The translations under genes were made by a program, and so were the position numbers. Of a stretch of DNA of 64,000 nucleotides, positions 1,069 through 59,553 are shown piece by piece (positions within the stretch are counted from its first letter, which is position 1; every line of letters starts with the position of its first letter). The stretch is from Climacium dendroides. Lineage: Eukaryota; Streptophyta; Bryopsida; Hypnales; Climaciaceae. Location: contig OX467088.1 of the NCBI GenBank assembly GCA_950106755.1, forward strand, positions 16,042,001-16,106,000. Direction: 5' to 3'. The notes under the pieces were generated by a model. It ran no database searches, was not told where the DNA came from, and saw only the letters and a program-made list of their open reading frames with translations.

Positions 1069-1072
1069 TTAA

Positions 1073-15444: not shown

Positions 15445-15448
15445 TTAA

Positions 15449-21840: not shown

Positions 21841-21844
21841 GAGG

Positions 21845-23061
21845 GTCCTGTACTTCCAGTACTACAAGTACTGTGAGTACTACGAAAGGTGCGCAGGATG
21901 AATCATGGACCGTTGATTTGAATTCCGATCTACGGCTGCAAGTACACGTGGCAACAAACTTTCGAAAGACTGACATGGCGGGTGGAGGCTGTCAGATGCC
22001 TGTCATAATGTTGCCGTCGTAGACTTTACTCTCGCTTCACCTAATTGTGGTGCCAAAGTGGAGGTCGGTTGAGTTAGGACTCCACTTCCGCGTGCCGTTG
22101 AAGCGAACTCACGAAGCGCTACAAAGGTTGAGTTTTGCCACAACTTTGTCGGCGATGGCATGCGCACTTTCTTGCATCGTCGAACTGAGCTCCCATTTGC
22201 GACTACTGTTGTTGTTGTCGGTTTTTGGATTCAAGACAAATTGACTCGGGCAAATTCGGGCGTCGTTGGAGTTGCCAACTTCAGTGAAGTGCGCGCTTTG
22301 TAGTGCACGACAACGGCGTGGGTTCAGAAGGCGTGGGTTCAGAAGAGGTATGCCCTGCCGGCCCCTATCCTCTTCAATTTCATTCGACATTGGTTTAGAT
22401 GCGTCTTTGTGTGCATAGGCATGACGGATGTACTAGTGCACCCTTCGTGGTTTGTCACAGGGAAGCCCGAGCGAAGCTCATGCTACCGTCTTAGGTTTAG
22501 GGCTGAATTCTAGTACGACAGGGCTTGCCTCCTCTCAATAGGATGACGGTGTTCCTTCTTGTTCGCGATTCAATTCATATGCAGTGATGTAGTGCTGTTT
22601 TGATAATCGCTCTCAGTGAACGATGGCTTGCGGTGCTAGGATTTAGGGTTTAGGGTCTGTATGCTAGCTGTGAGTTTCTTCTCGTTGTCCTCAAGTCCTC
22701 CACCCACCGTTTCTAGATGTCTGGAATTTGTTCCTGTGCAGATTTCTTGGAGTAGCACATCGTAAAAGGAAAACGATGACTGCGCATACAACTACTGAAC
22801 GGGGTGCGTTGTTCTATAAGAATTCCCTTCTTATCATGGTACTTTATAATGCTTTGTATATTTTCTTATATCATGCTCGTTGTCCTTTCTTTCTTTTTGG
22901 TGGATTCTTCATGTTACTGGACTTGTACTACTCCTCTGTTTCTTACACATATGTCACTGGCTTCACCCTATCTTCAGCATTTGCATAGACAATGTAGACT
23001 TTGGTTTCTAATGTTCTGTTCTTGATGTTCATGGCTTCCTTACCTTGCATAGGACTCTGCA
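21845..23061 (+). promoter_or_regulatory. 5' region of the SET gene and left end of the outer element
   Basis: No protein domain is visible. The stretch opens with three AGTACT words within about 30 bases (21858-21884). Plus-strand frames at 22728-23025 are hydrophobic and look incidental. It probably contains the promoter and 5' leader of the gene starting at 23062; I cannot point to a TATA box with confidence. Confidence 0.35.
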
Positions 23062-26000
23062 ATGGCGAAGATGAAGACTACTCCCGCTGACGATGACGTA
23101 ACTGTTACCTATGAGAAGAAAGGCAAGAGAAAAGCTCCGTCGCAAGCACCTGCGCTCAGTCCAGCAAAGGGTAAAGCCACTACGGCAAGTGTATCTCCCG
23201 ATGGCGCCAGTAAAGTGAAGGACAAGGGGAAAGCACTCCCTTGAAAGCAGAAGGCCCTACAGGTTTCTTTCGACTACGACTCCGACGGCAACGGAGATGA
23301 AGACTCTGAACAGGAGAGTCCGGACGAAGAGCACCGGAGCCCACGCTCGAAGCGGAAGAAGGTTGCTTCCTCTGCAACGGCTTACGATGAAGTTGAATGC
23401 CGGAGACAACTCAATATGTTGAGCCAGCCCTCCCGGTGTCCTCCCACCACCATGTCCAAAGACATATTCTACACTTCCTGTAAATTGACAAGGGATGGGC
23501 TGAACCCTCACAGACTGCGCTTGGAAAAGGACGTCCCCAAGAGTGACGTGGAGGATATGTTCGGTGAAGAAAAAGGGCGAAATGGATTCCTCCTTGCGAA
23601 GAAACTGACGCCAACTCTTCAGACAAAAGTGGAGACTTTATACTGCCAAATCTACCAGAGGACACAATGCCCTACCCACATCGGCAAGGAAATGTCTATG
23701 GGCTCGACTTTGCAGACGAAAGGAAAGAACATTAATTGGGCAGGCTTCGCAGCTGAAACGAAAGTGAGGCAGCGGCAGTCGTATGCTAGACGTGTGAAGA
23801 CTTGGTTGACACGACTGGCTAAAGTGCAAAATAAGACATTCGAAGAGGCGGAGGTCATCTCCAAATACTTGGATGTTGTTGACGAAAAGAAGCCGCGCAT
23901 TCAATTGTTCCAGTCCTCTGAGGAGAAGACCGCAACTGTGACCACAGCCGAGCAATGCACTCCAGTACTACGTAGCATCTTTCTTACAGATGCACATAGG
24001 GCGGAAAGGTGCGTTTCCTTAGTCTTCCACGACTGTCCTACAAGTACTCTATGTATGTATTAGGAAGTTTCTGTGTGTGGCTCTTTCATTTCTTCTTCCG
24101 CGTGTTGCATAGTGCACTATGTTTGAGTACAACAATACTATGATCATTGTACATACCTTTCATTTCCAAGTACGTTCAGGCTAGCACATGTAGAACCTTT
24201 ATGCTGCTTTCTGGCACTTGCACCACTGCAACGTTGTCAAAAGTGAGCATTTGTGCCTTCATTCAGTACTACCAACTATGGCAAAAAAGTTGATGCAAAC
24301 GCTGTGTAGTCGGCGGACCTCGAGGACTCTGTATGAATACGTAGAGTACTACTTACTTATCCACCTTACCCGGCCAGCTATGCAATCTGCTTAGTGGTTT
24401 AGCGTAATACTTGCATGAGGGCTAACACATACTACCAGCCACGACTCTAACTCTAATAAGTACTTTCACTATCAAGAAGTTCTCGATGACGATATTTCAC
24501 AGTAGGTAGACCACTACCACATACTACTTTGTTGTTGGAAAAGCTTAGTGGTACTAGTACTATGCAAGGCAATTCCGTTATCCGCCACCTTCAGAAGTCC
24601 CTGTAGGTGCTTAGCTCAATGGCTTAGGAACGTGATGTTGGACTAGTACCAAGACTGAGTACTATTCTCCCAGCGGCTTCCTCTGACGTGGGCAATGTAC
24701 TCCATGCATTCACCTACACTCGTACACTGTACTAGAAGGACTAACAAAGCAGTGTCGTAGCCTTCGAAAATACTACTGTACAAGTTCAGTCCCTTCTGTG
24801 AGTACTAGGACTTTGTTGTGCATTGTTTTCTCTCTAGTTAGTAGTACGACATAGTCCTCCGCTTCAGGACTACAATTACGGTGAGTGACATAGTACTACT
24901 AAGTAGTACTACTATGTACTTCTTGGACCTTCATTACTAACATGAACCTATATTTTTTCAGACTTGTTGCGGTACAAGAGTTGGTGAATTCGTTGAATGA
25001 ATCACTCAATAAGTTCGAGGCCGACGCAGAAGACCTCCGAACAAAGGCCGACCTTGCAGCTGATCAACTTTGTGCGAGTGTCCTCGGAATTCAGCAAGTG
25101 CAGGAGACAATGAAAGAGATGGGAGAAGACAATGGATCGACCATTTTCAAGAGGTTATTGGAAGGGCATTCAAAGAAGTACGTGGAGTTGACCGCAGCAG
25201 AGGCTAGTTGCAAGACGGCTCTCAACAACGTCATTGAAAAGATTTTGGGTACCCAAACACGGCTGACAGCTTTAGAAGAACATTTGCAGGACTTGACGCG
25301 TGGAGGGGATGGAGTGCTACTCCACCCACATCCATTGGTGAATACCACAGAGGCTCTACCCGATGCTGTAATGGAAGACATCATGTTACAGCAGCCGCTT
25401 TGTGCTGCATGCCAAGAGCCTTTTCCTCATGGAGATGTCGTGCTTTGCAGTTGCAGGCACATGTATCACCCATGGTGTGCGGCACAATGGTTTAAAACAT
25501 CTTCTATGTGGCATGTGCGCTCACTCTCTTTGTGGAGTCGTGAATCCCAAGTGGCTAAGGAGCTGGGGTTTTCCCGTCAACTTCAGCAATACTGAAGTGC
25601 GTGGACATGACGTGGACGGCAACTCCATGAAGAAATTGCCCGCAACTAAAATACGTGGTCAACAAACTGGGGGGCCTTCAGCACTCGGTACGTGACATAC
25701 GTTTTCTTCTCAGTGGATACTTCAGTAACAACTTCTAGTGCTTTAGGGTTTATTGTAGGCCACGACGATGTTCCTCACTTCAAGGCTTTGGACTCGAAAT
25801 TCAATACTTAGATAGTGAAAGACGTACCTAATCTGAAGTTCTTGACATTACTACTTCTCCAAATTGTGATTCATGCATGTTGTGATCACAAACATAATAT
25901 GCTGCTCTTTGTAAAGGAATGCCGGGGCAACGTCTTGTCTATGAGTTTTTAGTATGCTTTGTCATGAAGACGTCCTACTTTCAGAAAGTCACTCAAAACA

Positions 26001-29000
26001 AGTACTGTGGTGTCAATGGGCAGGACTATGCTCCTTTGCAGTTGGTGCACCCAGCATGTCAGCCTCAGATAGCACATTCTCTAAAATCGTCTTGAAGGAA
26101 ACGAACTATGCTAGCCACGCAGTGGCAAAAGAGCAGGAAGACACATTGCCTGGTACTCCAACTGTAGTCATTTGTGAAGGCGGCGGTAGTTCTAATCCTT
26201 TTGATTCCAAGGGCTCTGCCGTCGAAGCTAACGTGAAGGTCGCCTATACAGACACTCCACAATCTGTGCCACCACTGCTTGAATCAACGACCAAAAAAGT
26301 AGATGCCGACTCAACTGACAAGAAGAGAGGAGCACAGCCACATCCTCGAAGCACCAAAGAACTCGTTTTGGAAAAGAGAGGGACACCACCTGCCCCTCTT
26401 GCAAATAATGCATCCGTTATGAAGAAGAAAGTCACACTTGTGGAACCTCGCACCAATGAGGTAGACGTTGTGGACGACTTCCTACAAAACTACAAGAAGA
26501 CTACAACACCACTTTCAGACCTTGACAAGCAGCTCATGGAGTTTGATGCGAAAGGAGAGGACTTTGATGACATCCTTCCGCAAGCGAGCCCAAGTTCTGC
26601 TACGCGTTCTATACCAGACAAGCCGCCAGAGGTACGTCATTGTGCTGGAGTCAACGGACTTCGTATTTGCTTTATTCCTTCGTACGCTGCATTACTATGT
26701 CTCCATTTTTCTGTTCAGGTGCTTCGAAGTGTGAGATTTCAAATGCATTGTGATGCCATAAATGCTCGACATTGTTGCAGACCGAGCGTGCAGAGTCTCA
26801 ACCGACTGCTACAGTTGAGGATCCCTGGGATATCACGATTCTAGATGCATCAGAGTCGAAGGAGAATTCCAGCAAGAAAGAAGTCCCTGCTGCGCCTATA
26901 CATAGCAACGCAGGGGTGCTCAGAGAAGAAGGGACTGAGCTAGCAGACTCCGTAGCCAGCCCAGTGAAACGTGGGACAAGACGACCCACGTGTGGTGTGT
27001 AACAGTACCCAGTGTCCGTTGTAGTGGAAGTGTTCCTCTTTCTAGTATTACAATATGTCCTTGTTCGTCTTACAAGTACTATTTGTGATTCCGCTTAGTA
27101 CATAGCGTACGCATGAATAGTACTTTAGTCCTCAACAATACACGACGATGATGTTGGCAGTTCTAATCTTTATACGCTTCAGTCCTCCACAGTACGCGAC
27201 AATGATGACATTAGTCCTAATCTTTGTACGCTTCACGAACGAAAAATAAAGTCCACATAAGGGTGCACGACGGTCTCTTACTTCATATGTAACTAATGAA
27301 TGCATACTGTTCTTCAATGTTTTGTATGATTGTATCAAGTAGAGGAGGCAGGTCTGCGTCAGCGAAGACACGGAATCCTCCGGAACCTAGCAGAAGACAG
27401 TTACGTTCGAAGACGTCTACGTCATCAGGAAGTCCTCCATCGGCAAGTGCTGCTGGAGCGTGTAGTCCGGATGAGGTGGGTAACTAGTGAACTTGCAACG
27501 CATACATCTCCAACTGAGGTCATACCACATGGAGAAGATGTGTAGGGAGAAACCCTTCCCTACTTCTGACAAATCTACTTCTACAGAAATGCTCCTTTTT
27601 TGGATAGGACTAACCTGTGCTGCCTGTAGTAAACGCCCGCAGGGGCCTAATGCCAGCAATACACGAGCCAAGCACAAATGTTGAAGAGGGGTGTTGCAAT
27701 GCCCTGTGCTATGAAGTTCTGAAATTTTCTATATTTCAGCTCATCACAATATGCAATATACTATTTATTGGGCCTACATATCTCTTGTATAATATGTTGC
27801 TATCCACAGGGTGCACGTTCAACATTTGTACGTGACTTGTCAGGAGGATTGGAAGCACCTCCTATTCTATTTCACGATACTAATGCACACAGTTGCAAAT
27901 TATCCATTCATAGTGGCTGCATTTACACACGCAAACCTGTTTTGCATGAGTCAGTGAATGTGGGTGCTCTAGCATCAACATGCTCTGCTCACATTTGTCC
28001 TTTTGTAGCTTCTGAGAGAAAATGCAGTGACATTGAAGGCGCCGTCTACTCCGAAGCCATTCTAGAGTCAACTTATATTGGAAACGATACTTTGAGTGAC
28101 CGATTTATGGCAGAGGTAAGTAGAGTACCACACTATGTACTCTTAGTGTACTTACGCATTTGCCTTATCCACAGTACTAACGTTTGGTGACCAAGGAAGT
28201 GCATGTTTGTTTGCAAAACGACATTTGGTTTGGGGCGTGGCCAAATGACTTGCATGGAGTGCATTTGCCACGGTAGTTCAGACGGTCGAGATCACTACGG
28301 AACGGAGGCCTCGTCCGCTGTGTAGAGCTTCCCTCTTGTCCGGAAAGTGAGGACGGAAAATGTGGCGACCATGTTCAAAGACTGTACATCCGGGAGTGCT
28401 ACGGTGTGTGTGGTTGTAAGCCTCCTTGTCATAATCGAGTTGTGCAAGGAGGCGTGCAGAAACAATTGGAGGTCGGTGGTGTTCCGGCAGCCGCGGCGTT
28501 TCCTCATGTTCTAGCTTTGGGTTCATTGCATGAAGCAATTTCTCTCCTGCCGTATTCTTCTCTGAATCACTTGACGTGGATGTTGCAGTTTCCAGTTATT
28601 GACAGCTTGGCAAACATTGCAGGTATTCCATGCAAGCAATACAAAAGGTTGGGGCATTCAGACGTTGGAGAGACTTCACCGGGGATGCTTCGTATTTGAA
28701 TACGGTGAGGAAATTGTAACCAATGCTAAGTTGTTGAGGCGGGGAACAGGGCAGCATTTTGCTCTAGCTTTGGATGCACATTGGCAGTCAGAGGTCTTTG
28801 AAGGAGATGACTCACTACTTTCCATTGACGCATCCAAATATATGAATGTCTCGCACTAGTTGAACCACATGTGATGTCCTCACTCTCTTCACAGTTCTGT
28901 AAAAGTTAGCTTTCCATGCTTTGAAAATGCCGAGTACATTCTCTGACGCGACGGTTGTAGAATTGATGTCTACGCGAGGGCAGATGCGGGGATACAAATC

Positions 29001-29328
29001 AGATGGACATCCCAGTTTTGATTGAACACAATGTTCCGACTTTATACCATATAAGTAAGCCAAAAGCGTCCTTGGGAGGAAGAAGTAGACATGGGGAGTG
29101 AATGACGGACTGCACTGCATATTGCATGAAGAAGAAGTGTTTCTCATTACTACTGAGGTCTCGCAGGTGGCTTTCTTTACAAATCGGAAAGTGCAGGCGG
29201 GAGAGGAACTCACATGGGATTATGGATGCAATTTTTATACTAAAAACGGTTTGAGGATGCCATTTCCATGCTCCTGTGGCAACAAGCACTGTAGAGGGGA
29301 AAGTGAACAACTTCGATTGCACACATAG
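23062..29328 (+). pseudogene. Coiled-coil / RING-like / SUVR-type SET histone methyltransferase, decayed
   Basis: The C-terminal part matches plant SUVR H3K9-type methyltransferases. A pre-SET region runs from DLSGGLEAPPILF (exon 27810-28115) through MTCMECICHGSSDG to RECYGVCGCKPPCHNRVVQ (to 28471). The SET exon 28623-28857 has NTKGWGIQTLERL, FEYGEEIVTNAKL and IDASKYMNVSH. An exon near 29003 has MDIPVLIEHNVPTLYH. The last exon, 29167-29328, has VAFFTNRKVQAGEELTWDYG and a post-SET CSCGNKHCRG. Upstream in the same direction lie exon 1 (23062-24008, starting MAKMKTTPADDD), exon 2 (24962-25687, helical then a CAACQEP...CSCRHMYHPWC...CGMC zinc finger), and Ser/Pro-rich exons (26042-26631, 26781-about 26995, 27340-27475). 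Exon 1 to exon 2 joins in phase. A TGA in exon 1, a frameshift after the zinc finger, another in pre-SET, and stops inside the SET NHxC motif make this copy non-functional. Whether it is one fused gene or two adjacent genes is not proven. Confidence 0.75.
24009..24961 (+). other. Intron 1 of the SET gene, dense in AGTACT palindromes
   Basis: The donor follows GGAAAG and the acceptor is TTTTTTCAG; the flanking codons join in frame (AER|LVAVQELV). By eye this 950-bp intron holds about ten AGTACT hexamers, for example two within 24890-24920, where about 0.2 would be expected by chance. No coding sequence is seen. Confidence 0.7.
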
Positions 29329-29932: not shown

Positions 29933-30045
29933 CTACTGTTTCTTCTGCCATGCTATATACAACTTCTCCGCCTTTCACTTTGTATTGTCTAGGGATCATT
30001 TGAAACTTGCAAGCAAGTACAGAATTAGCATCAAAGAAAGCCTCC

Positions 30046-30055
30046 CTTGAATTAC
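30046..30055. repeat. Left target-site duplication of the inner element (CTTGAATTAC)
   Basis: CTTGAATTAC here is repeated exactly at 39615-39624, immediately outside the other end of the inner element. Removing one copy and the insert restores a continuous reading frame of the minus-strand gene. A 10-bp duplication fits Mutator-like elements (9-11 bp) better than hAT (8 bp). Confidence 0.85.
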
Positions 30056-30225
30056 AAGGTTGCTAAAGTATGAGCAAGGAGCGATGAGCGTTGAGCAATG
30101 AGCAATGAGTGTTGAGCATTGAGAATGTTTTGAAAAATTTGTGGAAAACCTATAATTTTTTACCATAAGGGTTTTTGGTTTATGGTTTATTATAAAAGCA
30201 TAAAACTATAGATGCACTTAAAGAG

Positions 30226-30275
30226 GATGAATGGAGATGAATGGAGATGAATGGAGATGAATGGAGATGAACAGA
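30226..30275. repeat. 11-bp direct repeats near the inner-element left end
   Basis: Four to five copies of 'gaatggagatg' lie in a row about 170 bp inside the left terminus of the inner element. They may be sub-terminal transposase binding repeats or a simple minisatellite. Confidence 0.6.
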
Positions 30276-33200
30276 GTTGGATGAATTATTTTTTAGTTGA
30301 CTTTATTGAATGAAATACATTTGTTCATGACATTGGATGAAAATGAGTTTGGATGATTAATCAATGATTTGAACTATAAAATCATTTGTTTTAGATAAAT
30401 GTCATTTATCAAGTATTTTAAATCCAAGGTTTAAGTGGTTTTTTTTTAAGCTAAGGACCTATGCTTATATGGTATTCTAAAACCATTTTAGGGTGAAGAT
30501 ACCATTTCTAATTAAAATTCACAATTCTTTTCAAGCATTTGTAAAGTTCACCAAATTTATTTTTATGCTAACACCAACATTTACTATTTCTAATTACATG
30601 TTTTCATCAAAGAGAAGTACCATGTTGCTAATAGAAAGAAATAGATTCAATCCAAAAAAATTTCTACTAATTGACAATAGTAACCATTATCTCTTAAAGT
30701 AGATGCCCTTTTCACTACTACTTTAAAGATCACCAAAATGCAAAATAACTTAAGAATATGGTAAAGTGCAAGAATGTAGTGGCCTTTTTAGTCTCACTAC
30801 ATGACATTAGAAAATCAAGTAATAACAATAGTCTTTAGAACAAAATCAATTTAATCCAATGCTACATATGGGAGAAGAATGATCACTAGCTTCACTACTA
30901 TCACTATATGTAAGCCTTGGTGTCTCAACATTTGCTTCAAGGTCTAAAAACTTCTTGACAACAATATTGTATGAACGATATTTGCCAATAGAAATGGGTG
31001 ATGGAGCCTCTGCCATAGATGTCGCTAGAGTCTCGATGTATCATGACAAACTCTTTGGACTAGGAGAAGGCGAGAGCACCAAATGCTTGAGAAAATTGCC
31101 TCTACAAGATGCAATGATTAAATAATTAGAAACTTTGAATAAATTAAAAGACATTGCACAATAAAAGAAAATAAACACATGCCTAAAAGCATCAACAAGC
31201 TTACTTACAGCAACGTCTTTTTCGAGGCCTTATAGAAGGCTTGACAATGTCATCATCATCAGAATCATTCAACACTATAGGCAAAAGCCGCTTAGTTTAG
31301 ACGGTGGCAATAGAAGTAGGAAGGATGGTCAAAGGTTGAAGAAGACCTTCAAAAATCTCACTATCGCTCTCCAAGGCCACTAAATGACGTCCAATGTTGC
31401 AGCATGCATGGATAGAGGCCCCTGTTTATTGAATGCAATGTCATCAGTTGCATCAAATATATTACATACAATGTAAAAATTATATGGTTTCAATAATAAA
31501 AAGTAATGACTAATGAAAGGTACCTGTAGATGCAAAACAATCCAATACCACATCACCATGTTTTGAAGATGCCTCGATTAGTAGTTGTACAAATAGAGGA
31601 TCTTTCTCACGGGCACCTCTCTACAGAATTGTACCATTCATAAGCTAAGTCTGCAAGGAGGTATAGTTGTGGAGAAGGTCAACTTCTTCAAGGTTTGTAC
31701 CTGCATCACTAAGTTGTTGGTTTATAGTGATAGAAAATTTGGATTCCACCAATGTTTCCTCCCATTGTCTTCGTACAAATAAGAGGATCCTAAAGCGTTG
31801 TGACTGCAAGGGATAAACAAGTATGACAATTAGTATTTGACAAATACAATTTTACTAGTACTATACCAAAATGTGGTAAAAAGACCCACAGTCAAAATTC
31901 ATTGTAGTTTTTTTCCCCACAATGTTGTACATGCTGTTGACTATTGCTGCAATTTTTTTTTTCATTTTCTAACTCAATTTTTGGAATTTGATGACATGTA
32001 ATATACCATTGGAAAGGTATTATATGCTATGAAATTCCAAAAATTCAATTCAAAAATTGAAAAGGAAGGCTGCAGCTGTAGTTAACAGCATGTACAGCAT
32101 TGTGGAAAAAAGAACCGCAGTGAATTTTGACTGCGTTTCCTTCTTACCACACTTTGGTATGGTACAACTATAAGATAATAATCAAAATATTTATAAACTT
32201 GTAAAATGTAAATTTTTTCATATGAATGAAAAAAAAAGTTGATTATATACCTCAGCCTAAAATGAGGCCTTATAGGGCCAAGTCTCTAAGGTCATTGTGT
32301 TGAAACCGACGGTGGGGAATTTGAAACCCTCCCTAGAAGTCTCACTTGAATTCCACCACCTAAGCCAACGAATCTTGTGGTTTGGTTGAACTTGGCATGT
32401 AGAAATCCTTTGAAGTTTCTCCAAAGACATCTTAGGCTTCTTGTTGGCGTTGTAATGCAAGTTAATCTGAAATTTGAAAAGACATAAGTATAGTAAAAAT
32501 CAAGTCCAAAAATAATCATATAAATAAATAAAAAGCAAGTAGGCATAATAATATACCTCTTCTAGGAATCCAACGCCATTTTTTGGATTTGCAATGGCGG
32601 ATTGTTTATCAAACTCCGTTCAAAATCCTTTGATAGCTGCAGTGGTGGCTTGAGTCATGGCCTCATGAACTCCCTTCGGAGTTCATTCTTCCAACTGTGT
32701 CTTCTCATAGTAAGTTCGCACAGCCACATCTAAAACAATAGCAATATCTTGCTGCACATGAAAAACATGAACTTGAAATCAGTATAAAATAAATTTTACA
32801 AATCACAACAATTGAATGAAAAAGTATTACAAACAAAAGATACTCACCAGATGAAGGAATTGTATGAAGATGGGAGATGTCAATGAATACCAAGCACCTG
32901 GTAGCTTTGTGGCCTCACATTTCTTGTAATCTTCATCACTTAGAAGCCCCTTGAACTCTTCCAATTGCAAGTTGTCATAAGTACTCATTCTATGCAATTA
33001 TTGAACCAAGTTGCTTTTGACATGGGAATGCTCTGTAGATCTGCAAATATCAATGAAAATAGAATGTAAGATGAATGAATGTAAAAACATAGAATATTAC
33101 AATACAATTGAAGAAGCGATAAAATAAAATAAATATTGATTCAACAAACATTGGAACTCACCAATTGATATCATTCATAGCCTCCAATAGAATGCATGTA

Positions 33201-34029
33201 CGACCTTTGGACACCAATAACATATAATGAACAAGTAAATGCCACTTGCGATCATGACGATGCATTCTGTGGATGTAAGCATACCAAGCCGCCAATCTAT
33301 GATTACCATCCCATACAAAAAAATATGTGATTTGACAAGTGTGAGATGGTTGGTTGAGAACTCAACCAATACTCAAATTGGTCATTCTTGTGTATCCAGT
33401 GTTCATCCCACGTCTCTACAATCTCAAGTGTCACTAACTTGGAAGCTCCCTTGTCATTTGTTATTAACACATAAAGTACACAATCACCTTGTCAATATCC
33501 ATGAATAAACTCAGCCTCCAATCGTTTCACTTGACTTTGGAGGAGAGGACAGACCAACGGAAGCCCAATCATCCTGCAGAAAGGAATATCAAATCGAGAT
33601 CCTGAACCACCACCATTGAAGAGCGTGCTGTTGATGATTGCATTGGAGTCCAATTTCTGACCATTTCGCACATTCACTTCCACCTCATCTATCGTTTGCC
33701 CTTCAAAAACTTAATCAACACTTTGAATATCAATGGTGCTGTCAACCTACAATCAATAGAAAATTGAACTCAAGTTATAGTTAACATTAAGAAGTCATGG
33801 AAATGAAAACAAATATGACGACAACTATAATACAAAATCAATCATAGAATTTATCATACAAAAATAAATAGAAATGCATCTAACCTGAGGATTGCCGACC
33901 ACAAGCTAAGAATCATCATTGGTGACTAGCTCCAAGTGCTCCATTTGTGGAAGCCCTCCATCAATGTCCATAAAGCTCTGTTTTGAAGAAACAAGAATAA
34001 GTATTTTTTACATCTTTATTAAAAATCAG

Positions 34030-36120
34030 CCTAAGTAGTGACCATGTTAACGAGGTTACATTTTCAGCCCAAAGCAAGCATCAGGAAAATACATTTTGAA
34101 CCTCAGACTTAAGTTTAAATTCTCTAAGTGAGTGTTTAGAATACATTGGTAGAAGTGACCTTGTTAACAAGGTCTGTTTTGCCAATGTATTTCAATAGTG
34201 TAAAGAAAGAACAATGAAGGCTAAAGTGAAAACTGAACTATGTAAGTGATCTCTAAAAAATCCGAAGAAAGAAGCCTCATCAATGAGGCTACTTTTTCCA
34301 ATGTATTTCAGTAGTGAGAAGGTAAAGAAATGAAGCCTAAAGTGAAAACTGAATTCTCTTAGTAATCCCTTTAAACCCTGAAAAAATGACCTCGTTGACG
34401 AGGTCACATTTTGCAATCCATTTCAGCAGTCTCTTAGAGAAAACCGAAGCCTAAAATTAGAATTGAACTGTCTTTGTCATCTCTCTAAACCCTTCGAAAA
34501 GTGACCCTATTAACAAGGTCATATTTTGCAATCCATTTCAGCAATCTCTTAGAGAAAATGGAAGCCTAAAATGAAAACTAAACTATCTTTGTCACCTCTC
34601 TAAACCCTTGGAAAAGTGACCTCGTTAATGAGGTCATATTTTGCAATCCATTTCAGTAGTCTCTTAGAAAAAACTGAAGCCTAAAATGAAAATTAAACTA
34701 TCTTTAACACCTCTCTAAACCCTTGGAAAAGTGACCTCATTAATAAAGTCACATTTTGCAATCTATTTCAACAATCTCTTAGAGAAAACTAAAGCCTAAA
34801 ATGAAAACTAAACTATTTTTGTCACCTCTCTAAACCCTTGGAAAAGTGACCTCGTTGACGAGGTCACATTTTGCAATCTAATTCAGTTAACCTTATGAGA
34901 AAAGCAAAATCTGAATCCTAAACTGAAATTGTCTTAGTAATTTCAGAAATCTCGGAAAAGTGACCTCGTTGACGAGGTCACATTTTGCAACACTACTAGA
35001 AAATGGTGTTCAAGTCAACAAAAATTTAATAAGTTTTTGTTGACTGCGATACTATATTGACTGTTTTAACAATTTTTTTTTATTTGAACAAGCTAATAAA
35101 ATGGGCATTGAATTTTTGTTGCTTTAAATAGTACAACATCCACATCAACAAAAAAGTTAACACTTCTTTGTTAAGAAGACAATCTCTTATACACTAGTGA
35201 TGTAAGAGAGGTGATTTTGGTGACATAAGAGAAGAGAAGACAAGCTCTTTATAGAAATGGGGTGATAAAAGGTCAAAACAAACCATATGGGATACATGAA
35301 TCATTCATAGTCTTAATTCACATATCCCATATGGTTTGTTTTATCTCCTACCACCCCATTTCTATAAAGAGATTGTCTCCTTTAACCTTCTATCACCAAA
35401 GTCACCTCTCCTCTATCACTAAATACTTAGTCCTATGAAACTTGTCTCCTAAATTATTTGTAAATTCTAGCTTTCTTGTAATTAAATTGTAAAGTCTAAT
35501 TTTCTTCTAATTAAATTGTAAAGTCTAATTTTTGGTCATTTATATGTGTTATTTTTGGCCTACATGGCAGTTTGTACTGGGTTGGTTCTTGGCTTGGCAT
35601 GTGGCAGTTATTCATTGAGCAAATTTAAAAATGAATTAATATTATTATTTTTCTGATTTGGCCACCATAACAAAATGGACAATAGTTTTTTGTTAGGTAT
35701 TGTCCAAGACAACGCGACCACGGGTACAAACACCCTCAATACTTTTTTGTTAATTTTTTGTTGACATGGTCATTTTTTTTCTACTAGTGCAATCTAATTC
35801 AGCAAACCTTACGAGAGAAAGCAAAATCTGAATCCTAAACTGAAATTATCTTAGTGATTTCAGAAATCTCAAAAAAGTGACCTCGTTGACAAGGTCACAT
35901 TTTCCAATCTAATTCAACAACCTGTAGAAAGAATTTGAAATTATGCATCAAAATTAGAAATTGTCTTCGTAAGATTGTAAAGAACTTAAGAATGTGATCT
36001 CGTCAACGAGGTCACATTTCAAACCTTGAAATTGCAATCTTCTGAAAATCATACATCAAAACTGGAACCGTTTGAGTGATCTCTTAAATCCCTGAAAAAG
36101 TGACCTCGTCAACGAGGTCA
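34030..36120. repeat. Array of 12 palindromes, about 115-bp period (intron 1 of the methyltransferase-like gene)
   Basis: Each unit has a near-perfect palindrome of the form GACCTCGTTGACGAGGTC followed by 'acattttgcaatc'. I find copies starting near 34033, 34158, 34275, 34387, 34501, 34616, 34731, 34846, 34961, 35877, 35995 and 36101. Variants such as GACCTTGTTAACAAGGTC keep the dyad through paired changes. The last two carry the centre as GTCAAC rather than GTTGAC. A CACTA element splits the array at 34991-35789. Such conserved dyads could be binding sites or RNA hairpins. Confidence 0.85.
34991..35789. mobile_element. Non-autonomous CACTA element (0.8 kb) nested in the palindrome array
   Basis: It starts CACTACTAGAAAA and ends TTTTTCTACTAGTG, flanked by CAA (34988-34990 and 35790-35792). 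The array sequence 'ttttgcaatctaattcag' is restored when the insert and one CAA are removed. Inside, about 35225-35380 forms a long hairpin whose arms contain CTTTATAGAAATGGGGTG and AACAAACCATATGGGATA inverted. It has no coding sequence. Confidence 0.88.
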
Positions 36121-36657
36121 AGTTTACAACCTGAAAAAGGGGTGTTCAGAAATGGCACCTCTTGAGGATTTGTAGGAACTTGAACTTCCATCGCATTGCT
36201 GCCTTTAATGGTGTCGGAGACACTCTCCCGACTGTCGCCGCGTGCCTCTCCATCCTTACGTAGCATGCCACTCCGTAAGTTCATTTCGGAAGCAATCCTA
36301 AGCCAAAACACAGCAATGGAGAAGGAAGAGAACTACACCAAAGTAAGCCGAAGATCAGCCCATGGAATTGTTCTTTGGTTTCAAAAAGATGGTTTCAAGC
36401 AATGGAGAAGGAAGAGATGGGTAGATTTAGGCCAAGGGAATCTTTCTAATAAAATATGCGATTTCATAGATTTCTGGTCCAAATTTTTTGGAGCACATAG
36501 ATTATAACCTCAAAAGTAACCCCATTTTTTTTCAGATTTTTTGAAGTTACAAGGAATTTTACAAAAATCGGCAAAGTCTTCTACAAATATTTGGGCAAGA
36601 TTTGGCTGAAAAATCAGCCGATTCTGAAGATTTTAGAGAAGATTCCAAGATGCTGAA

Positions 36658-37430
36658 TTAGTTTTTAGGCCGTAGAACATTCAAAAATGCTTCATTTTTG
36701 CGTGCTATATACCATTGGAATCGTCTTCTCAAAATACACGAAATGAAGTTTGGTGTCAAATTCACCTTTAACAAAAAATATTCAACACATACAATTAACT
36801 CCTCACAGTCTAATGGCTCCAGTCCTACCAATGAATACATAAACTTACCAACTTTGCGCTGATCACTAGGGACATGTTCTTCTTTAGCATACTCGGTTGG
36901 CATACGTCCACTTTAGTTTCATCAATAGTGTCAAGCTTGGCAATATCCATTCCTTCACTATTTTGCGTCAAACTAAACTCGTGTTCAAAAGGTGCATTTT
37001 CAATCCCATCATTCTCATGCGACAAGGTCCGAACAATGCTACTAATTTCACCACCATTGGATTTCTGTAAGCGCCTAAACATCTTCCATCTTTCTAGCTT
37101 TTTTTTTGCTAGAGAAGTGAAGTCCTGCCTTACATTTCGTTCTATGAGAACCCTTCGGCATCCCTTCAACCAAAAAATCCAAGAAAGCGAACTAGACTTT
37201 CTCATTAGCAATACCGCAATCTCTCCGATATATAGCACTCTTCAAGTCTAATGAATGTATTCTCATCCAATTCATTATAACTTCTCCAAATAAAACATCT
37301 ACTAACCAGGATATAAATGGTCAATAAGATCATCCATTCTTCGCTCAACTGCTTCATAATCACTCTCACATTTGAATATACCACCACTACATTGGAAGAG
37401 GCCTCCATTTGGAGCCTTCTAATCACCCTT
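36658..37430 (-). pseudogene. Unrecognised minus-strand coding remnants in the inner element
   Basis: Two overlapping frames join across a probable 1-nt shift near 36905: one contains KLERWKMFRRLQKSNGGEI and ENAPFEHEF, the other EYAKEEHVPSDQRKVGKFMY and GLEPLDCEEL. A third (LFQCSGGIFKCESDYEAVER) lies upstream near 37.4 kb. I recognise no family. They could be 5' exons of the methyltransferase-like gene or a separate dead gene of the same element. Confidence 0.4.
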
Positions 37431-37550
37431 CAATGTAAAAGTGGCGCTATGTACAATTCATTATTCCAAAGATCGGGTATTGATAACTAAATTTAAAAAA
37501 CTCAATTGTTGGCCGTGCATTAAATTTTTAAATATGGAGCCCTAAATCCT

Positions 37551-38463
37551 TTTAAGCTAAGTGGGGTACTTGAAACAAACTACAACCCTACTTTGTGGCA
37601 CATTGCTAAATGCAAAAAGGAAGGAAAGACTTGTCATGGAGTTCAAGTTGGGATGAAGAAGAAATGTGGGGCCAAGATAAACAAGTCAAGTAAGAGTAGA
37701 ACAGCAGCACCTACCTACAACGGCCACATGACAGAATATGGAACCAAGGCCATCATCAACTTTGATTTTTGGTTTTGTGCAGATGACTTTATGCATTGTG
37801 CAGGAGGCTCTAAAATCAAGTGGGTTCATGACTGGCCTCCTTTGCCAAATGTATGGCCTATTGCATGTGGAACACATCTCACCAAATCAAAGATCCTTTC
37901 TCTGGAGGAAGCAGGATTTCAATTGCAAATTGAGGAACTAGACAAAGCAATGCTCTTATGCTCCATCTCTTTAATGAAGAGAGTACAGATGGAGGTGTAT
38001 CTTTCCTTCGTTCAAAACATCCAGATAGCAATTTTCAATCATCTGATGGTGATATGCACCTGATAAAGCGATTGGGTAGGACCATACAACGTAATCCTAA
38101 TGCACCGACAATTGACCACTGCAACAAATGGGAGACAACACTAAACCTAAAAGCTGTCATTCAATCCGTAGTCATTATTCCATATCTTGGCTATGGTAGA
38201 GTGATAACTCTACTGTCCGGCATCTTTCCCAACCAGAAGGTCTATTGAGTCACAATTTCAGACTTTCTTGCTTGTACCTGCGAAGACTTCATCACCATGA
38301 GTACAACTGCACTTGGTAGTAGGAAATCTTGGGTGAACTGCAAGCATTTATATTATGTCTTTAGGTTCATTTGCAAGGCAAATTCTGAAGACAATAAGTA
38401 CATACATGTACCAAGTTTGAGCTTTGATGAGGTGAAGCTACTTCTTGTAGGTAGCAATCTATA
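37551..38463 (+). pseudogene. SWIM-type zinc-finger protein of the inner element
   Basis: The frame reads NPTLWHIAKCKKEGKTCHG, then ADDFMHCAGGSKIKWVHDW and PNVWPIACGTHLTKS, shifts by one base near 37955, and continues HLFNEESTDGG to the C-terminus. Near the end it has ACTCEDFITM, then about 12 residues, then WVNCKHLYYVF. This is the CxC...CxH pattern of SWIM zinc fingers, as found in MULE transposases and FAR1-related plant proteins. It stops at LLVGSNL near 38463. A TGA just before VTISDFLACTC sits where Trp would fit. No DDE catalytic core is visible, so it is either an accessory protein or the C-terminal relic of a transposase. It lies divergently from the methyltransferase-like gene. Confidence 0.6.
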
Positions 38464-39500
38464 AGATGTATATTCATCTTATAGTACTAGGTTGAAAAAC
38501 TACTTTTGTTTAGAAGTGAATATAGAATGGCCCATTGAAGTAGTTGACATGTATGCTAAATCCTAATTAGTTTAAGGTGGAAATAGTTTGTAGCAGCTTA
38601 CAAACAACTGAAATGATTTGTAAAACCATAAACATAACAAAAATACATTTAAAAAAAGCTAAATTTAACCAAAAAAACATTGCAGGAAGAAATGTTACAA
38701 TTCTACAAATGAATCTTGAAAATGCTACTACATTCTAAGGAGAACTTATTATAATGAAACAACATTATACAATTGATTGTTACATATCTCTAAATGAACC
38801 TTCTAAGAGTTTCTTAAAGTAGCCTCACCCATAATTGTTACTTTACCTATAACCATCACTTCCTTACATCTTGGAAAATCTTGGGGAGTAGGAAGATGTA
38901 ATTGCAGGAATGTACCTCATCTAAAAATTTGACGTAAGTGGTGGTTTTAAGTCAATGTACAATCGGCTCTTTTAAAAATTCAAAACTTATTCATGTCCAA
39001 AAAATAAATTTAAAAATGCATTGAAATTCTTTTTCTCTTCTAAGTACAATTCAATAATTTTTTGGATGTCTATTAATCAACAATATATCCCAAACCCCTT
39101 ATTTTGACAATTATGGGTGCTTCTACTTTAGTTACAAAAAACACAACCAACCTCAGATTAGTTAACAAAGTTTTAAGATCAACAATGCAAACTTCAAAAA
39201 AATTGTAAATTATTATTTTAACAAGGAAAAAAGTTCATTTATTTTAAGACATATTACAAATATGTAAAGAAAATTTTGGGAGGATGGATGATGAATGGAT
39301 GACATGAATGAAGCTCATTCATTCATCAAATTTATGGTTGAAAAATCATCTACTTGTGGGAAATGCTAGTCTTCATTCATGCCCATTCATGCAACATTTG
39401 AATGTAAAATTCATTATTTTCAATAAAAAAAATTGCAATTTCTTGGATTTATTTTTTTATTTTTGGTTTCTGACATTTCTATATTTAGATCTGACAACCC
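38464..39500. other. AT-rich right sub-terminal region of the inner element, no gene seen
   Basis: The stretch is AT-rich with no recognisable protein. It holds scattered 'gaatgga'/'attcattc' words near 39290-39400 that resemble those near the left end. It leads into the GAGCAAY-type right terminal repeats at 39545-39614. Confidence 0.5.
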
Positions 39501-39544
39501 TATTTATTACTCTGACATGTCTATTTTTAGTAAAATTCTTCATA

Positions 39545-39614
39545 GTGAGCGCTCAAATCTAATTGCTCGTTGCTCGTTGCTCGTTGCTCCCCGCTCACAC
39601 TCTAACACCGTTGC
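39545..39614 (-). repeat. Right terminal inverted repeat of the inner element
   Basis: On the minus strand it reads GTTAGAGTGTGAGCGGGG followed by three GAGCAAC heptamers, mirroring the left end at 30056-30110. The outside flank is the duplicated CTTGAATTAC at 39615-39624. Confidence 0.8.
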
Positions 39615-41949
39615 CTTGAATTACGGAGGAATACATAGTTGCTGCTATCTTGGCATCCCCATTTTTGATAGTACTTTCCGGAAATGACAGAGTCTCCTGC
39701 TTCAAATTGCCCTCCCCAGACGCATTGAAAGTCCCCTTCGGCAATGTGCTTTGGCTGCTAACATTGTAAAACGTAGAAGGAGACACCTTCGTCATTGTCC
39801 TCCTCGGCTGGCACAGCAAAATTATCTCCAGGTTGCACTAGGTCCCCCATGCATTCACCATCTAGCTCGTAATCTCAGGTGTCCTCTTCATCCTCCTCAG
39901 CAAGTTGGACAACAGCGAAGGAGACATTTCGTGGCTGAATCTTTGTGATAGTCCACGGATCAACATATTTTTTCTTCTCACAGTGAATGAAGTTTCCCTC
40001 CACGCACGGGCCACAGAAGCACGAGAGATGTCTGAGGAACAATTTGGTTGGGTCATGCTTATCGGGGGCATAAATGGAGTGCAGTTTTGAAGAACCTAGA
40101 ATACGATCACAACTTTGAGTGTTCACACGGTCAACATCTTGCGCTCCGATGTGATGGAAATACCTGTATGACCTGCATCCACTTCCTCAGATGTTGTTAG
40201 CGCGTACACCAACGATATACACGATGAATTCTATCCCTTTGTGGTTTCTGCAAATGAGAGAGGATGCAGTACTATGAGTACTATGACAGACGTGGGACAC
40301 TATATAGTACCTCAAGAGTGATGTAGTACCAAGAAAAGGTACTAATTGCTGCTTTGACGAACCCGAGCATTGTCCCTGGTACTCATTTCATTACAATACC
40401 CAAGTATAGTGGTACATTCAAGAGAACCATACGTGGAATTTGGTAGGATGACAAATGACGCATACAGTGTGGAAAGAACCTTGTGTCACCACGTTGATTA
40501 GGAACCTGTTCGACCATAGTAGCATCTAGGAAGAGAACACAGTCTGCTGCATTCTGGAGTCGTCGGTGAGGATTCAGGAGCTGCTCATTCCGAAGAGCCC
40601 TTTTCACAACTGCTCCGACCCCATCCCATTCACCCTTTCCATGGCCTGTGCCATAGTAGTTCCAATGCATTGTACATCCGCCAGTGAAGGCCGGGTATCT
40701 GTGGCATTTTGTGACGACTCCGTCATGTTCATGAAAAAGTCGTCCACTTAAACAGAAAGCCATGCATTTCAAATGAGTGGCCGTTGCCATACCTAACAAC
40801 CGTCTACAGTGAAGCAGTCGAAGCACAGTACTACCTAGTACAATGTGTAATACAACAGGGTACACAGTAGTACAGCTGCAAGTATAATGGATGACTTCGA
40901 CCAAAGTGTAGAAGACAGTGACCTGGCAACGAAGTACATGGCCTTTGCACTTTTGAATTGCGCAACACAACCGTCACTGAATACATAATGAGTGTCTGGA
41001 GAAGATCCCTTCGACTGCATCCACCTCCAATGCAGGAGTAGGCAATGTTGGGTGAAAGCACTGTCATGCATCTTATCATCGGAGATGTAGTAGTGCGTCT
41101 CCCTGACCAACTGCATTTCCTCCTCCAAAGCACCCTCCGAAACCAGAACGGAGTACGTCACCTGAACTAAGATTGACACTTGGTCGGAATGGTAATACAT
41201 AGACTGGATCTCATTTTGGATTTCGAATGTGTAGTTCTCCGCAAAATCAATGTGCGTCAGAATTGCCCCAGTCTGCAAGGAAGCCTTCAGTATTTTTGCC
41301 TCGGTAGTTTGCCACTTTGCAATGAAATTGTGCCGTATAAAGTGTTGTACAATCGGCACAAAGAATTCAAGGAACTCACGGAATGAAGATGACATGTGAA
41401 CCTCCTTAATGCGATTCTTTGGTTGTCTATCCGCAGATCGGCTGACCACTTCGTACTGGAATTGCTTCCAGTGAATTGTCCATGTAGCATCTACCACCCT
41501 TTCTCGAGGATAGATGTTGAAGAATTTAGCGCTACAACGACTACAACATCCAAGCAAGCACTTCTTGTTATGGAATTCCTCATCCTCTAGCTTCGGACAT
41601 AGTAGACTTTCCCAAAGGACCGTCACACCAGCATATCGACTTCTGCCAACACTGCAAAGGCCTTCATCATCTCTATCGCACACAATGCAAGTGCAATTGT
41701 AGAGGAAAATTACATGTGCCCCTTTCTGGGGGTCTCGGAAGGCATTCAGAGCCTCCAACAAGTACAACACTTGGATGTGGTACCGGCAACAACAGACATT
41801 CCGGTCCTTGCACTTGATAACAAAGAAAGGGCGCAAGTAGATGAAGGAGTGCTGCTGGATGGAGCACTGTGGATGTGCTTCTATAAAGCGTGTGTACAAC
41901 TCCATCTGCAAGTACTCCAGTACAATAGTCAGAAAAAGTTTAGAGAACA

Positions 41950-43196
41950 TGCATATATATCAGAAGGAAAGCACACAGCAATGCACGTCTGATGTATGTT
42001 GACGTACTGCAGAAAATGAAGTGCATGTGAAGAGGTACTTGACGTACAAGTATATACAAGAATAAGTACAAATTAGTACTATACAGTATTAGAGGTCAGG
42101 GTGCTGTGAAGTGTGTGTGTCAGTAAATTCTTGAAGTACTCCTAAGTACTACAAAGAACACCATGTAGTACTGAAAGGACTGACCTCAGTACTAGGACTT
42201 TCTCTAACTGTGACCATAGCATGCCAGAGACTTCTTCAGAGAGTCGTCGAATATAGGCTTAGTACTGTATTAGACGTCGCACTAGTACCATGCGGATTGC
42301 AAGGGTGAAGCTGACGACAAAGGAGAACTACAATGCGGCATGCTAGTATAGACTCAGTGCTACAGACAATGTAACTGTACTCTACTGAATTTGCGTCATA
42401 CAAGGCATTACTCTCTCGGTGCTCACTAGTACGAAGTGAGGACTATGAAGTTCTATATTGGTCCAGATAGAACATAGTGGACTACAAGGAAGTTGTGGGG
42501 GACTTAAGCCCATGAGCGCTAGTGACACGCTAGTAATTTCAAAATGAGCCCAAGGTATAATCTCAGTGTAGCAGAGGACTGTACAGGAGGATCCGATAGA
42601 AGTAGGAGCTTGAAGTACTACAGAAGTATCCATGTAGTGTTCGTTGCTACTACATAGGTCTCATGTTTGCATGGGGAAGCACTAGCAACAAATGCATAGT
42701 ACAATGTCTGAAGCAATAGTGTTCTACCTGTCAGAGAAGAAGATTCTGAATATGTCATCTCAAAAGCAAAGACATACCACAAGTGTAGGGAGGGCGTAGT
42801 GGACATCCTATTGAGTACTATAGAGGCATATCTGTAAGCGTGGACGACAGGGCAGCAGAGGCCTTAGCCATGTCCACGTATTGCAATACATAGATCACTG
42901 CAATGTAGGCAGTTCACTACAATGTAAAATGCACTTCAAATGTGTGGAAAATGTGGACGTACTACAGCAGTACCCGAAGTCCTACAATGTGTTCAAGAAG
43001 GACTAATGGAATGCAATGCATTCCATCTGAAAATCCTTGTATATAATATGAATCGGAGTAGGACTCCTCCAGACATGCGAGAAGTCACTTCTAGTATTAT
43101 CATGACATAAGCAGCAGTCATGTGACGCAACAAAATTTTTTTTCAGGGAAGATAATACCAAACCGCTCTATTTTGCAAAGAAAAGACATCACGCAC
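41950..43196. other. Intronic or spacer DNA of the DFAENY gene, AGTACT-rich
   Basis: No additional exon was identified between exon 2 and exon 3, though small ones could be missed. The stretch carries many AGTACT words (for example 42074, two at 42135-42150, 42165, 42187, 42260, 42613 and 42815). Confidence 0.5.
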
Positions 43197-44175
43197 TTGC
43201 TAACAATGAACACGAATGGGCTCTGTTGGCTAGCAATGTCAGCTATACATGCTCCTACTCTGTTTACTATGTCGTATGAAGTGAAGACCTTTACTGCAGA
43301 GGAATCCTGAAAGCGTGCATGACTTTTCCAAAGAACCCTTCTCCTCAAGCAATGAAGGTTTGAACAAACAAAGATTGTACAAAAAAAATCGAAGCCATGA
43401 TTGGAAATTAGGGAGGCCGTACCTGACTCTCCATTAGAAGATGCGCTACATAAGTGTCGTATGCATTCCGTCCCAAGCGTTTGCGTCGCACATCCCGTCT
43501 CCCGGGACTCACTTGCGTCTCCTGTGTCCACCACTGCAAGACCAGTTGCTTGACCTCATAGCGGATTCCACCTTCCCTTGTCTTTCGAGTTGGAACTGCA
43601 AAACGTGAGGAAGTTTCTGTTGTAGCTGATCGTAGTCTCTCTACAGTAGCTACCAAATTCTCCTTTCTTGTACCGAGTATGCTATGGAACTTTGAGATGT
43701 CGGAATCTAATTCGCTCACCACTGCCTCCAAGATTGCCCTCTTGTGAGCCAGCATATTCGAAGAATGAGGAATTTTCATGGCCACCAAGTCCGACTTAAT
43801 ATTGAGCAGAATCTGTCGTTGGGACTTTGCTTCTTTAGGAGTAGGGTAATAACTAGGGAGGAGCGGTCGAATGGTACGACTACTAAAGACCTTTTCCAAA
43901 ACAACAGCTCTGAAATTGGAATCCCCAATACGCTGTAGCAATCGTGAAAGGGAATTCGTGAGGCGACTCGCACTCCTCCAAATACTAGTCCGGTGCCTTC
44001 TGCATCCCCATCGTAGATCTGGCGCAGAATTGGCTTCCACACTTGCCGCGACTGTGTCCTTGGCAATGATGCGTTGGTTGCGACTACGGCGTTGACGATC
44101 CCTCCATTGTTGTCGCTGATTCAGTACCGCAGCATCCTCCGCCCGCCGCCACGTTCGTGGCCCCGGCCGCGTCAT

Positions 44176-45129
44176 CCACTCATCTGCCGGAATACTTCAA
44201 AGGCGACATTGCAGTAGCCCCCGATCATAAAACGGGTTCTCATCACTCCTGCCCCTATCTTCTTCCCTGCATGAAGATGCAACATTGGATTTCTGTGTAC
44301 TACCTTCCAAACCCAACATCGTAGTTCTACTGCTCATTCCGTGCACTAAATTTCCCTGCAGGAACCGTCACTGTTCTTCTTCGGAACTCCGGAACAAGAG
44401 AAGCTGGCGGCATTCATCGTTCCTGATGCATAGACGCTAGAGAAGGCAATTTTGAAGTCTCCATAAAAGCAAACCGCAGGGGTGGATGAAGAGGTAGTTG
44501 GACAAGCAGTCCACGGTGGCAATGGCGTGGGCCCCCCCTAGGACTATGCAGTACTATTTGTCTACGTTGGAATACTACAGGGAGCCAGAACTTTAGAATA
44601 TTGCTAGAAAATGGCAGTTTTTTATTTCTATTTTTTATAATTATAGGAGGTCCTTAAAAAATTAATATAAAAAATGGCCATTTTTTCCAACTCCCTGAAG
44701 TCACTGGAAGTGCAAAAACCAATTCATAATATTAATTTCCATGAGTGGAAATTACCTACAAATGTAGCTCTGTTCTGGCCAATGTATAAGCCCATGAAAT
44801 GAGGCAATCACAAATCCCTCTCCTGGGAAGTTGTATTTCCATAACAAGAAGGAGCCCACGAAGTCTGACACCCTAACTCTTCAGAAAAGGTACTCAAAAG
44901 TACTAAAAACCCCTAAAACTATTTATGTGACATTTGCTTAAAATTCAAAAAGCCATCCGTAATCATTTTTGAAAATTTTCAAAAAATTCCAGTACATGAG
45001 TTGATGATGGAAGAGCACTCACCCCAAATTTCAAGTTGATCCCATCTTTTCTCCAATACTTATGGCATCAAACAACTTCCGCACGCAACGGGTGACGGAA
45101 AATAGTACAAGTGTTTCTTGCAATCACCC
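44176..45129. other. Upstream region of the DFAENY gene and right edge of the outer element
   Basis: 44176-44585 is GC-rich and presumably holds the promoter of the minus-strand gene. Beyond about 44590 the composition returns to AT-rich and no gene is seen. Confidence 0.45.
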
Positions 45130-45133
45130 TTAA

Positions 45134-59460: not shown

Positions 59461-59553
59461 ATCTTAATTTCCCTCCAGCCCACGAATTCGATCGATTCGG
59501 AGCAGCTTGTGGGAAGTACTCCCCTGACTGAGAGGCCCGTCCCCGTCGTGATA

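Follow-up and report, generated by a model that had tools for sequence, protein, structure and literature searches.

Can a plant DNA transposon carry, and keep, a histone methyltransferase of its own? This question is raised by a locus in the moss Climacium dendroides. The window analysed here is a stretch of 64,000 nucleotides (GenBank assembly GCA_950106755.1, contig OX467088.1, forward-strand positions 16,042,001 to 16,106,000), and positions are counted from its first letter. A first-pass annotation, made from the letters alone, had proposed that two GC-rich blocks separated by a 9.56 kb insertion form a single unit with two convergent genes, one combining coiled-coil, RING-like and SET regions and the other encoding a transposase-like protein with DFAENY and GHGKGE motifs. 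Both genes were indeed found, enclosed by the ends of one transposon. The reading favoured here, with a probability of about 0.72, is that a Sola-like cut-and-paste lineage gained and kept a SUVR-type SET domain, joined to or co-transcribed with an older coiled-coil/RING partner, and that the product would serve self-directed chromatin control.

Ends, layout and mobility of the element

The outer limits are given by a 34-base inverted repeat (21789-21822 and 45100-45133, 97% complementary), of which the outer 4 bases constitute the target site duplication (TSD) TTAA and the inner 30 the terminal inverted repeat (TIR). The transposon occupies 21793-45129 including a nested insertion, so that its true ends lie further out than the 21841-44585 first assigned to it. 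Its features are the following:

21789 to 21792, no strand: TSD TTAA, left copy
21793 to 21822, plus strand: left TIR, 30 bp, 29/30 identical to the right TIR
23062 to 24006, plus strand: partner gene, exon A, without known domain and with a single in-frame stop; whole or partial in 7/10 other copies, partial in the divergent copy E29
24963 to 25690, plus strand: exon B, encoding a coiled coil and a RING finger; the frame is broken near 25518
26042 to 26997, plus strand: middle exons C and D, no known domains, boundaries approximate (by eye), C frame without confident Pfam match
27810 to 28115, plus strand: exon S1, no known domain
28202 to 28471, plus strand: exon S2, pre-SET, left boundary approximate
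28623 to 28850, plus strand: exon S3, SET
29167 to 29328, plus strand: exon S4, SET/post-SET, with ELTWDYG, CSCGNKHCRG and the stop codon
29895 to 30044, minus strand: transposase gene, end of exon T4 with its stop codon, to the left of the nested insertion
30056 to 39613, no strand: nested insertion, another mobile element, inside exon T4
39614 to 40186, minus strand: remainder of exon T4, on the right-hand side of the nested insertion (including the duplication)
40473 to 40697, minus strand: exon T3, GHGKGEWDG, third conserved D
40922 to 41914, minus strand: exon T2, with a region rich in cysteine and the motifs DFAENY and SDGC
43423 to 44196, minus strand: exon T1, N-terminal, upstream boundary approximate; resembles by eye the N-terminal part of P0061/P0065
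45100 to 45129, minus strand: right TIR, 30 bp
45130 to 45133, no strand: TSD TTAA, right copy

The unity of the two blocks, claimed on the grounds that one minus-strand exon continues across the insertion, was borne out by the TIRs and TSDs that enclose both and by the reading frame. The insertion measures 9,558 bp and is bordered by an 11-bp duplication, CCTTGAATTAC, at 30045-30055 and 39614-39624; with the flanks joined and the duplication counted once, a single open frame runs on the minus strand through YVFLRNS into REAFFDANSVLACKFQMIPRQYKVKGG, and the joined T4 frame resembles relatives such as P0034 when compared by eye. Without the insertion and one copy of its duplication, the transposon amounts to 13,768 bp, and a copy on C1 that lacks such an interruption spans 13,731 bp from end to end. 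Inside this TIR-bounded unit the transposase gene and the partner gene are convergent, and in the window copy both carry stops or frame breaks.

Mobility, which had been inferred, is supported by the TIRs, by TSDs at varied sites and by many short derivatives. Matching 4-bp TSDs were found at all 8 insertions with both ends read (TTAA, CCTA, AAGT, TAGT, TATA, TAGT, TAAT and AAAA). In the 412.6 Mb of genome searched for copies, ends and domains, the 30-bp end has 322 forward and 337 reverse sites when up to 3 mismatches are allowed, and its reversed control has 0. Among the first 100 of these 659 sites, there are 25 pairs of neighbouring ends that face each other at a distance of up to 30 kb, and 23 of these pairs span 733-737 bp; the other 2 are long elements of 13,731 and 12,274 bp, the latter without a RING exon. 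Four elements of about 735 bp were fetched (L079-L082) and proved 94-97% alike, with termini as in the long elements and 4-bp TSDs. From this likeness, the ~735-bp elements are taken as non-autonomous derivatives, presumably mobilised by the same or a near family.

Some neighbouring features may be recorded. The nested insertion holds a 115-bp tandem repeat array (34258-34947) and an open reading frame (ORF; 37524-38063) resembling by eye an ORF of an insertion within another locus, L032; Pfam searches at E up to 0.01 matched neither ORF. Directly left of the transposon lies a Tc1-like element (19629-21664) with 33-bp inverted ends, 88% alike, and Pfam matches to HTH_Tnp_Tc3_2 and DDE_3, each on a frame of its own. 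An open frame at 59452-60051, without Pfam match at E up to 0.01, resembles by eye the start of a plant cytochrome P450.

The transposase and its RING/SET partner

Public data contain 71 relatives of the transposase-like protein, and Pfam contains no match to it, exon T2 giving none at E up to 1. In the alignment, two candidate catalytic residues stand out, D212 being invariant and D303 nearly so, and a third D lies by eye within GHGKGxxDG in 13 of the 14 rows reaching that position. The predicted structure contains an integrase-like core, a fold common to many transposases, and the model retrieved RNase H-like folds among the top Foldseek matches (best E 0.04); a sequence search of the PDB gave nothing at E up to 1, and one scan of viral_contigs revealed no relative. 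The protein is likely a transposase of DDD type (three catalytic aspartates) with an integrase fold, as judged from alignment and model.

The partner gene had been assigned RING and SET regions by motif, and profile searches on read-through exons agree. Exon B reaches 28.8 bits against Pfam zf-RING_2 (cut-off 27.3) after reading through one frame break, and 27.2 unmended, whereas the joined and read-through SET exons score 32.3 bits against Pfam SET (cut-off 22.4), compared with 13.3 for the raw S3 frame alone. Among the RING-H2 ligands in the A2 alignment, C161, H163 and H166 are invariant, and C144, C147, C169, C180 and C185 nearly invariant. The structure model of exon B displays two long helices and a RING-like part, which matches RING domain structures weakly (E above 0.1). 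On the read-through exons the pre-SET, SET and post-SET regions of SUV39 type are all present, and by sequence the closest solved structures are SUV39H2 (2.5e-21) and EHMT2 (5.5e-20), with SETD2 at 1.1e-11.

A search of this genome placed two C2 genes, at 46% identity, among the closest SET sequences without transposon neighbours. The genome has a single match to WIYLD, placed 4.6 kb upstream of the SET exon of one of these host genes (C2:11242938), and the genome scan gave no WIYLD match at transposon copies. An insert of the form LDAxWxSE...LxxDA is common to the transposon SET and the two host C2 SUVR-like genes; two host genes without it are presumably SUVH-like. The C2 pair is labelled SUVR from the one WIYLD match and the common insert, by comparison with Arabidopsis. 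Since the C2 genes are nearest, one lies near WIYLD and the insert is common to the transposon SET, the latter can be assigned to the SUVR type, as the first-pass annotation had proposed; by its closest solved structures it is SUV39/G9a-like.

Copies, family history and constraint

Copies were compared through 106 listed transposase loci (merged from 111 rows of fragments) and their neighbours within 25 kb. Candidates from the first look were scored for 110 of 193 transposase, 150 of 336 RING and all 98 of 98 SET hits, so that transposase and RING counts are lower bounds; the RING exon has at least 119 merged loci. In the 16 close loci (at least 83% transposase identity, window included), a SET exon lies convergently downstream in 15 and a RING exon in 14. 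Across the 106 listed loci, RING follows at 76 and SET at 27, compared with 0.38 and 0.14 expected under uniform placing, and a single arrangement dominates (76/79 RING and 27/28 SET neighbours). That other copies of the transposase gene would never have a SET neighbour, one of the two refuting outcomes named in the first-pass annotation, is contradicted by these counts. One of the 27, a C16 SET match 24 kb away and without RING, is doubtful and was labelled unlinked in the SET tree. SET presence follows transposase identity, from 15/16 (83% or more) through 4/4 (52-57%) and 6/12 (42-51%) to 0/23 (39-41%) and 2/51 (38% or less, the doubtful C16 match being one of these two).

Ten of the 15 other close copies were fetched with flanks; exons S1-S4 were present in 10/10, the RING exon in 8/10 and the right TIR in 8/10, with both TIRs inside the fetched stretch in 2/10. 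Farther away, E29 on C3 (57% transposase identity) is complete at 16.0 kb, with TIR GGGTGAGTGCAAGAAAGACT and TSD TAGT, and shows T1-T4 followed on the opposite strand by SET, RING and part of exon A. The same order of T1-T4, SET and RING is found in E30 on C1 (45% identity). Its best candidate ends (934-17385 of the joined stretch, GGGTGAAAGTA.../TACA, 20/30 alike) begin with GGGTGA; 12 shuffles gave 4 matches of equal grade and one better (22/30), the common GGGTGA start alone favouring the candidate, and E30 was not counted as a ninth insertion with TSD because shuffles give ends as good. That ten of ten other fetched close copies and two divergent families share the layout contradicts the idea of the SET sequence as a one-off host fragment.

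Host genes lying together by chance or by selection, rather than one element, would account for the loci without a convergent transposase exon within 25 kb (18/45 SET loci, of which 4 have RING alongside, and 43/119 RING loci), and some of these unlinked RING loci, at weak E values, are probably host RING genes. Nevertheless, both genes lie between matching TIRs with TSDs in the window, C1_16.6M and E29, as does the SET gene in C1_36.0M, and the linkage is far above chance in one arrangement, so that this explanation can be practically discounted. A SET at L041 (G000:C3:556250-557150), nearly identical to that of E30, has no transposase or RING match within 25 kb; it is a candidate for either a fragment or a gene captured back by the host.

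A sister lineage, comprising L031, L078 and most listed loci of 41% identity or less, displays a similar transposase and RING/coiled-coil gene and no detected SET. RING is present in L031 (38%, with an open transposase frame of 654 aa) and L078 (41%); no SET was found by profile or motif scan in L031, nor by eye among the ORFs of L078. L032 lacks a SET within 16 kb owing to a nested insertion, and both SET and RING occur beyond it.

The families also differ in the hexamer AGTACT, which occurs 36 times in the element, 33 of them outside the exons that make up 45% of its length, compared with an average of 4.4 and a maximum of 9 in ten dinucleotide shuffles. Against second-order expectations, it reaches 36 vs 11.1 in the element, 30 vs 10.3 in E29 and 16 vs 5.7 in E30. 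Among the 6-mers compared, which exclude any that contain runs of three, are counted fewer than 8 times or have an expectation below 0.3, it comes second, third and third, respectively. Two RING-only loci gave 6 vs 3.0 and 4 vs 3.5, the nested insertion 3 vs 2.4 and the flanks 5 vs 4.9 and 8 vs 5.2; in L032, a SET family locus of 2.5 kb, 3 vs 1.1 is too few to use. GTACTA is likewise enriched, like the palindrome AGTACT. With three loci set against two, a putative address code tied to SET-bearing families is a lead only.

In a transposase tree built from 28 of the 106 listed loci with two rows as outgroup, all 14 loci with SET form one clade (91/94; 95% of 200 bootstrap trees), and 11 RING-only loci and two others form another (100/99). 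Three of the 28 lack both RING and SET, two of them inside the RING-only clade and C34_34.7 apart; long branches lead to C34_34.7, C37_27.88, C37_10.24 and C38_3.27. A quick 59-row tree with public relatives also placed every SET locus in one branch (96 in the Shimodaira-Hasegawa-like approximate likelihood ratio test, SH-aLRT), which holds in addition 21 public rows. The SET tree, from which four SET rows were dropped beforehand, contains two weakly supported groups (91/76 and 83/76) that correspond to the two arms found for the transposase. Most simply, an old pairing of transposase and RING would have gained SET in one lineage; loss of SET in the sister lineage is a conceivable alternative history.

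Constraint was estimated from the ratio of nonsynonymous to synonymous polymorphism (pN/pS), pooled over all pairs of 11 close copies, which are not independent pairs. In the partner gene, values of 0.50 (exon A), 0.46 (RING), 0.36 (pre-SET) and 0.51 and 0.43 (SET exons) were obtained, and in the transposase 0.36 (T2) and 0.39 (T4). At the level of sequence, the ends, TSDs, layout, multi-copy spread, parallel divergence and constraint on most exons are taken here as established.

Several results weigh against the favoured reading. Stops were found in all 11 close copies examined, with 3 to 14 per copy across the exons, so that these copies appear broken; 67 of the 76 stops are a single C-to-T or G-to-A step away from the codon of most other copies, which would fit methylated copies, weakly so because by transition a stop can arise from four codons only. 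Exon S1, with a pN/pS of 1.06, shows no constraint, and T3 (0.71) and T1 (0.65) show little. The sister clade is without detected SET. The support of the SET clade was not starred, and the SET tree is weak, its outgroup does not fall on one side of a branch, and it does not settle a split between transposon SETs as one group and host SUVRs; unlinked SETs stand among transposon ones in the second group, and the linkage label needs 5 changes. A search with the typed SET composite returned only one fungal relative among 97 public candidates, so that this SET version is known from this genome alone. Moreover, co-transcription of RING and SET is an assumption drawn from their layout, and the flanks (40.7 kb) also exceed dinucleotide shuffles in AGTACT, by a milder 15 vs 7.1.

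The broken copies, the S1 exon without visible constraint and the sister clade without detected SET speak for passive gene capture, with a SUVR fragment picked up as in Pack-type elements and hitchhiking without a role. However, SET is found in the same place down to 57% and 45% transposase identity and at 27 loci, the RING, pre-SET and SET exons are at 0.36-0.51 in pN/pS, and ELTWDY and the post-SET cysteines are largely retained in distant families. Passive capture is for these reasons regarded as quite improbable.

Known systems, putative chromatin role and meaning

Our best guess is to file the element as Sola-like, which is unproven: it has the 4-bp TSD, and known Sola elements were set alongside by description only. 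The Sola superfamily of DNA transposons was reportedly introduced by Bao and others in 2009. Its members are described with 4-bp TSDs, TIRs of 11-1124 bp, sizes mostly of 2-9 kb with some above 15 kb, a DDD transposase and an occurrence that includes the moss Physcomitrella (PMC10741241). The 4-bp TSD, the 30-bp TIR and the sizes of 13.7 and 16.0 kb fall within this description, as would the likely DDD transposase; the available text of PMC10741241 mentions no RING/SUVR-SET partner gene for Sola. Kolobok and piggyBac, with their TTAA-specific TSDs, are excluded by the occurrence of TTAA in only 1 of 8 insertions. Harbinger, with a TSD of 3 bp (PMC10741241), does not fit the 4-bp TSD, and no Harbinger family appeared among Pfam matches of ten transposase relatives at E up to 0.5. 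For Ginger, with its transposase of the integrase (rve) family, the comparison yielded the lack of a Pfam match for T2 and the integrase-like fold mentioned above.

The first-pass annotation knew of no plant DNA transposon family of this kind. HarbingerS and SET-bearing MuDR elements of Phytophthora were reportedly described by Kojima and Jurka in 2014. SET genes in DNA transposons have indeed been published for HarbingerS and MuDR of the oomycete Phytophthora (PMC12730594), so that the combination as such is not new. These likewise are DNA transposons with a SET histone methyltransferase gene, but they belong to other transposase superfamilies and other hosts, the present element having a SUVR-type SET, a RING finger and a 4-bp TSD. 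The plant part of the claim agrees with the literature search: in the open-licence literature no SET-bearing DNA transposons of plants or of Sola type were found, Repbase Reports and most subscription papers being outside its scope, and the available text of PMC13317346 mentions neither histone, SET domain nor Sola. In line with this search, a SET gene in a DNA transposon was known before, and what appears new is the plant host and the SUVR-type SET with RING and a 4-bp TSD.

Fungal DNA transposons carry a TET/JBP dioxygenase (PMC12730594). They too bring an enzyme for an epigenetic mark, and differ by DNA demethylation chemistry and fungal host. SETMAR of primates unites SET with a mariner transposase; it resembles the present case in this pairing, but is one domesticated fusion gene and not a SET-carrying mobile family. 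Arabidopsis SUVR4 binds ubiquitin via WIYLD, linking ubiquitin with methylation of histone H3 lysine 9 (H3K9) (PMC7218100). The transposon SET belongs to the same SU(VAR)3-9 group, whereas its gene has a RING and no WIYLD match.

As a working sequence of events for the favoured reading, the transposase would cut and paste the element, and the partner would dimerise through its coiled coil and be recruited to element DNA, perhaps via the repeated AGTACT-type motif. There, RING would transfer ubiquitin and SET would methylate H3K9 on chromatin of the element's own copies; with RING in the same gene as SET or beside it, one product could supply both ubiquitin and H3K9 methylation. The partner may thereby write chromatin marks on the element's own copies, to judge from its domains. 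The most likely purpose would be self-directed chromatin control for persistence, through dosage limitation or a state favouring the element, and not general damage to host silencing. In a stricter version, one protein would both ubiquitinate and H3K9-methylate chromatin of element copies, and an AGTACT code in the element's non-coding DNA, acquired at the same time as the SET domain, would serve as its address; this version is tentative and rather unlikely.

An opposite effect is described for VANDAL of Arabidopsis, where VANC causes loss of DNA methylation and VANC21, which acts against silencing, binds to a short motif that has accumulated in the non-coding parts of these transposons (PMC5735166). 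Both systems comprise a plant DNA transposon, a partner protein and a short motif accumulated in non-coding DNA; VANC removes DNA methylation, whereas the SET is a predicted writer and the motif here is known from sequence counts alone. By analogy, the partner could be a silencing antagonist, a counterpart of VANC in purpose that disturbs host SUVRs or RNA-directed DNA methylation (RdDM) as a decoy or by ubiquitin-marking host factors, and so frees the element. The motif accumulated as for VANC targets, the absence of WIYLD at elements while the only match lies near the host gene on C2, and the RING without SET in the sister clade, which suggests that the RING protein came first, speak for this possibility. 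Its SET motifs are largely retained, however, which would be needless for a pure decoy, and antagonism appears doubtful, though worth keeping in view.

Integration targeting was among the proposals of the first-pass annotation, next to self-marking and manipulation of host silencing: the SET/RING protein would tie the element to H3K9-methylated chromatin and lead it to land in heterochromatin. A SUV39/G9a-type SET would suit such a role, but the 4-bp insertion sites vary, and targeting is considered improbable.

Transposons and silencing are usually regarded as opponents. If self-directed chromatin control is the true role, an H3K9-type methyltransferase kept over deep divergence would mean that writing a silencing mark can pay for a parasite. 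The SET-bearing and RING-only sister clades within one genome would then constitute a natural experiment on the benefit of the enzyme, and the element would be a candidate for a natural tool that unites a short DNA address with ubiquitin transfer and methylation of H3K9.

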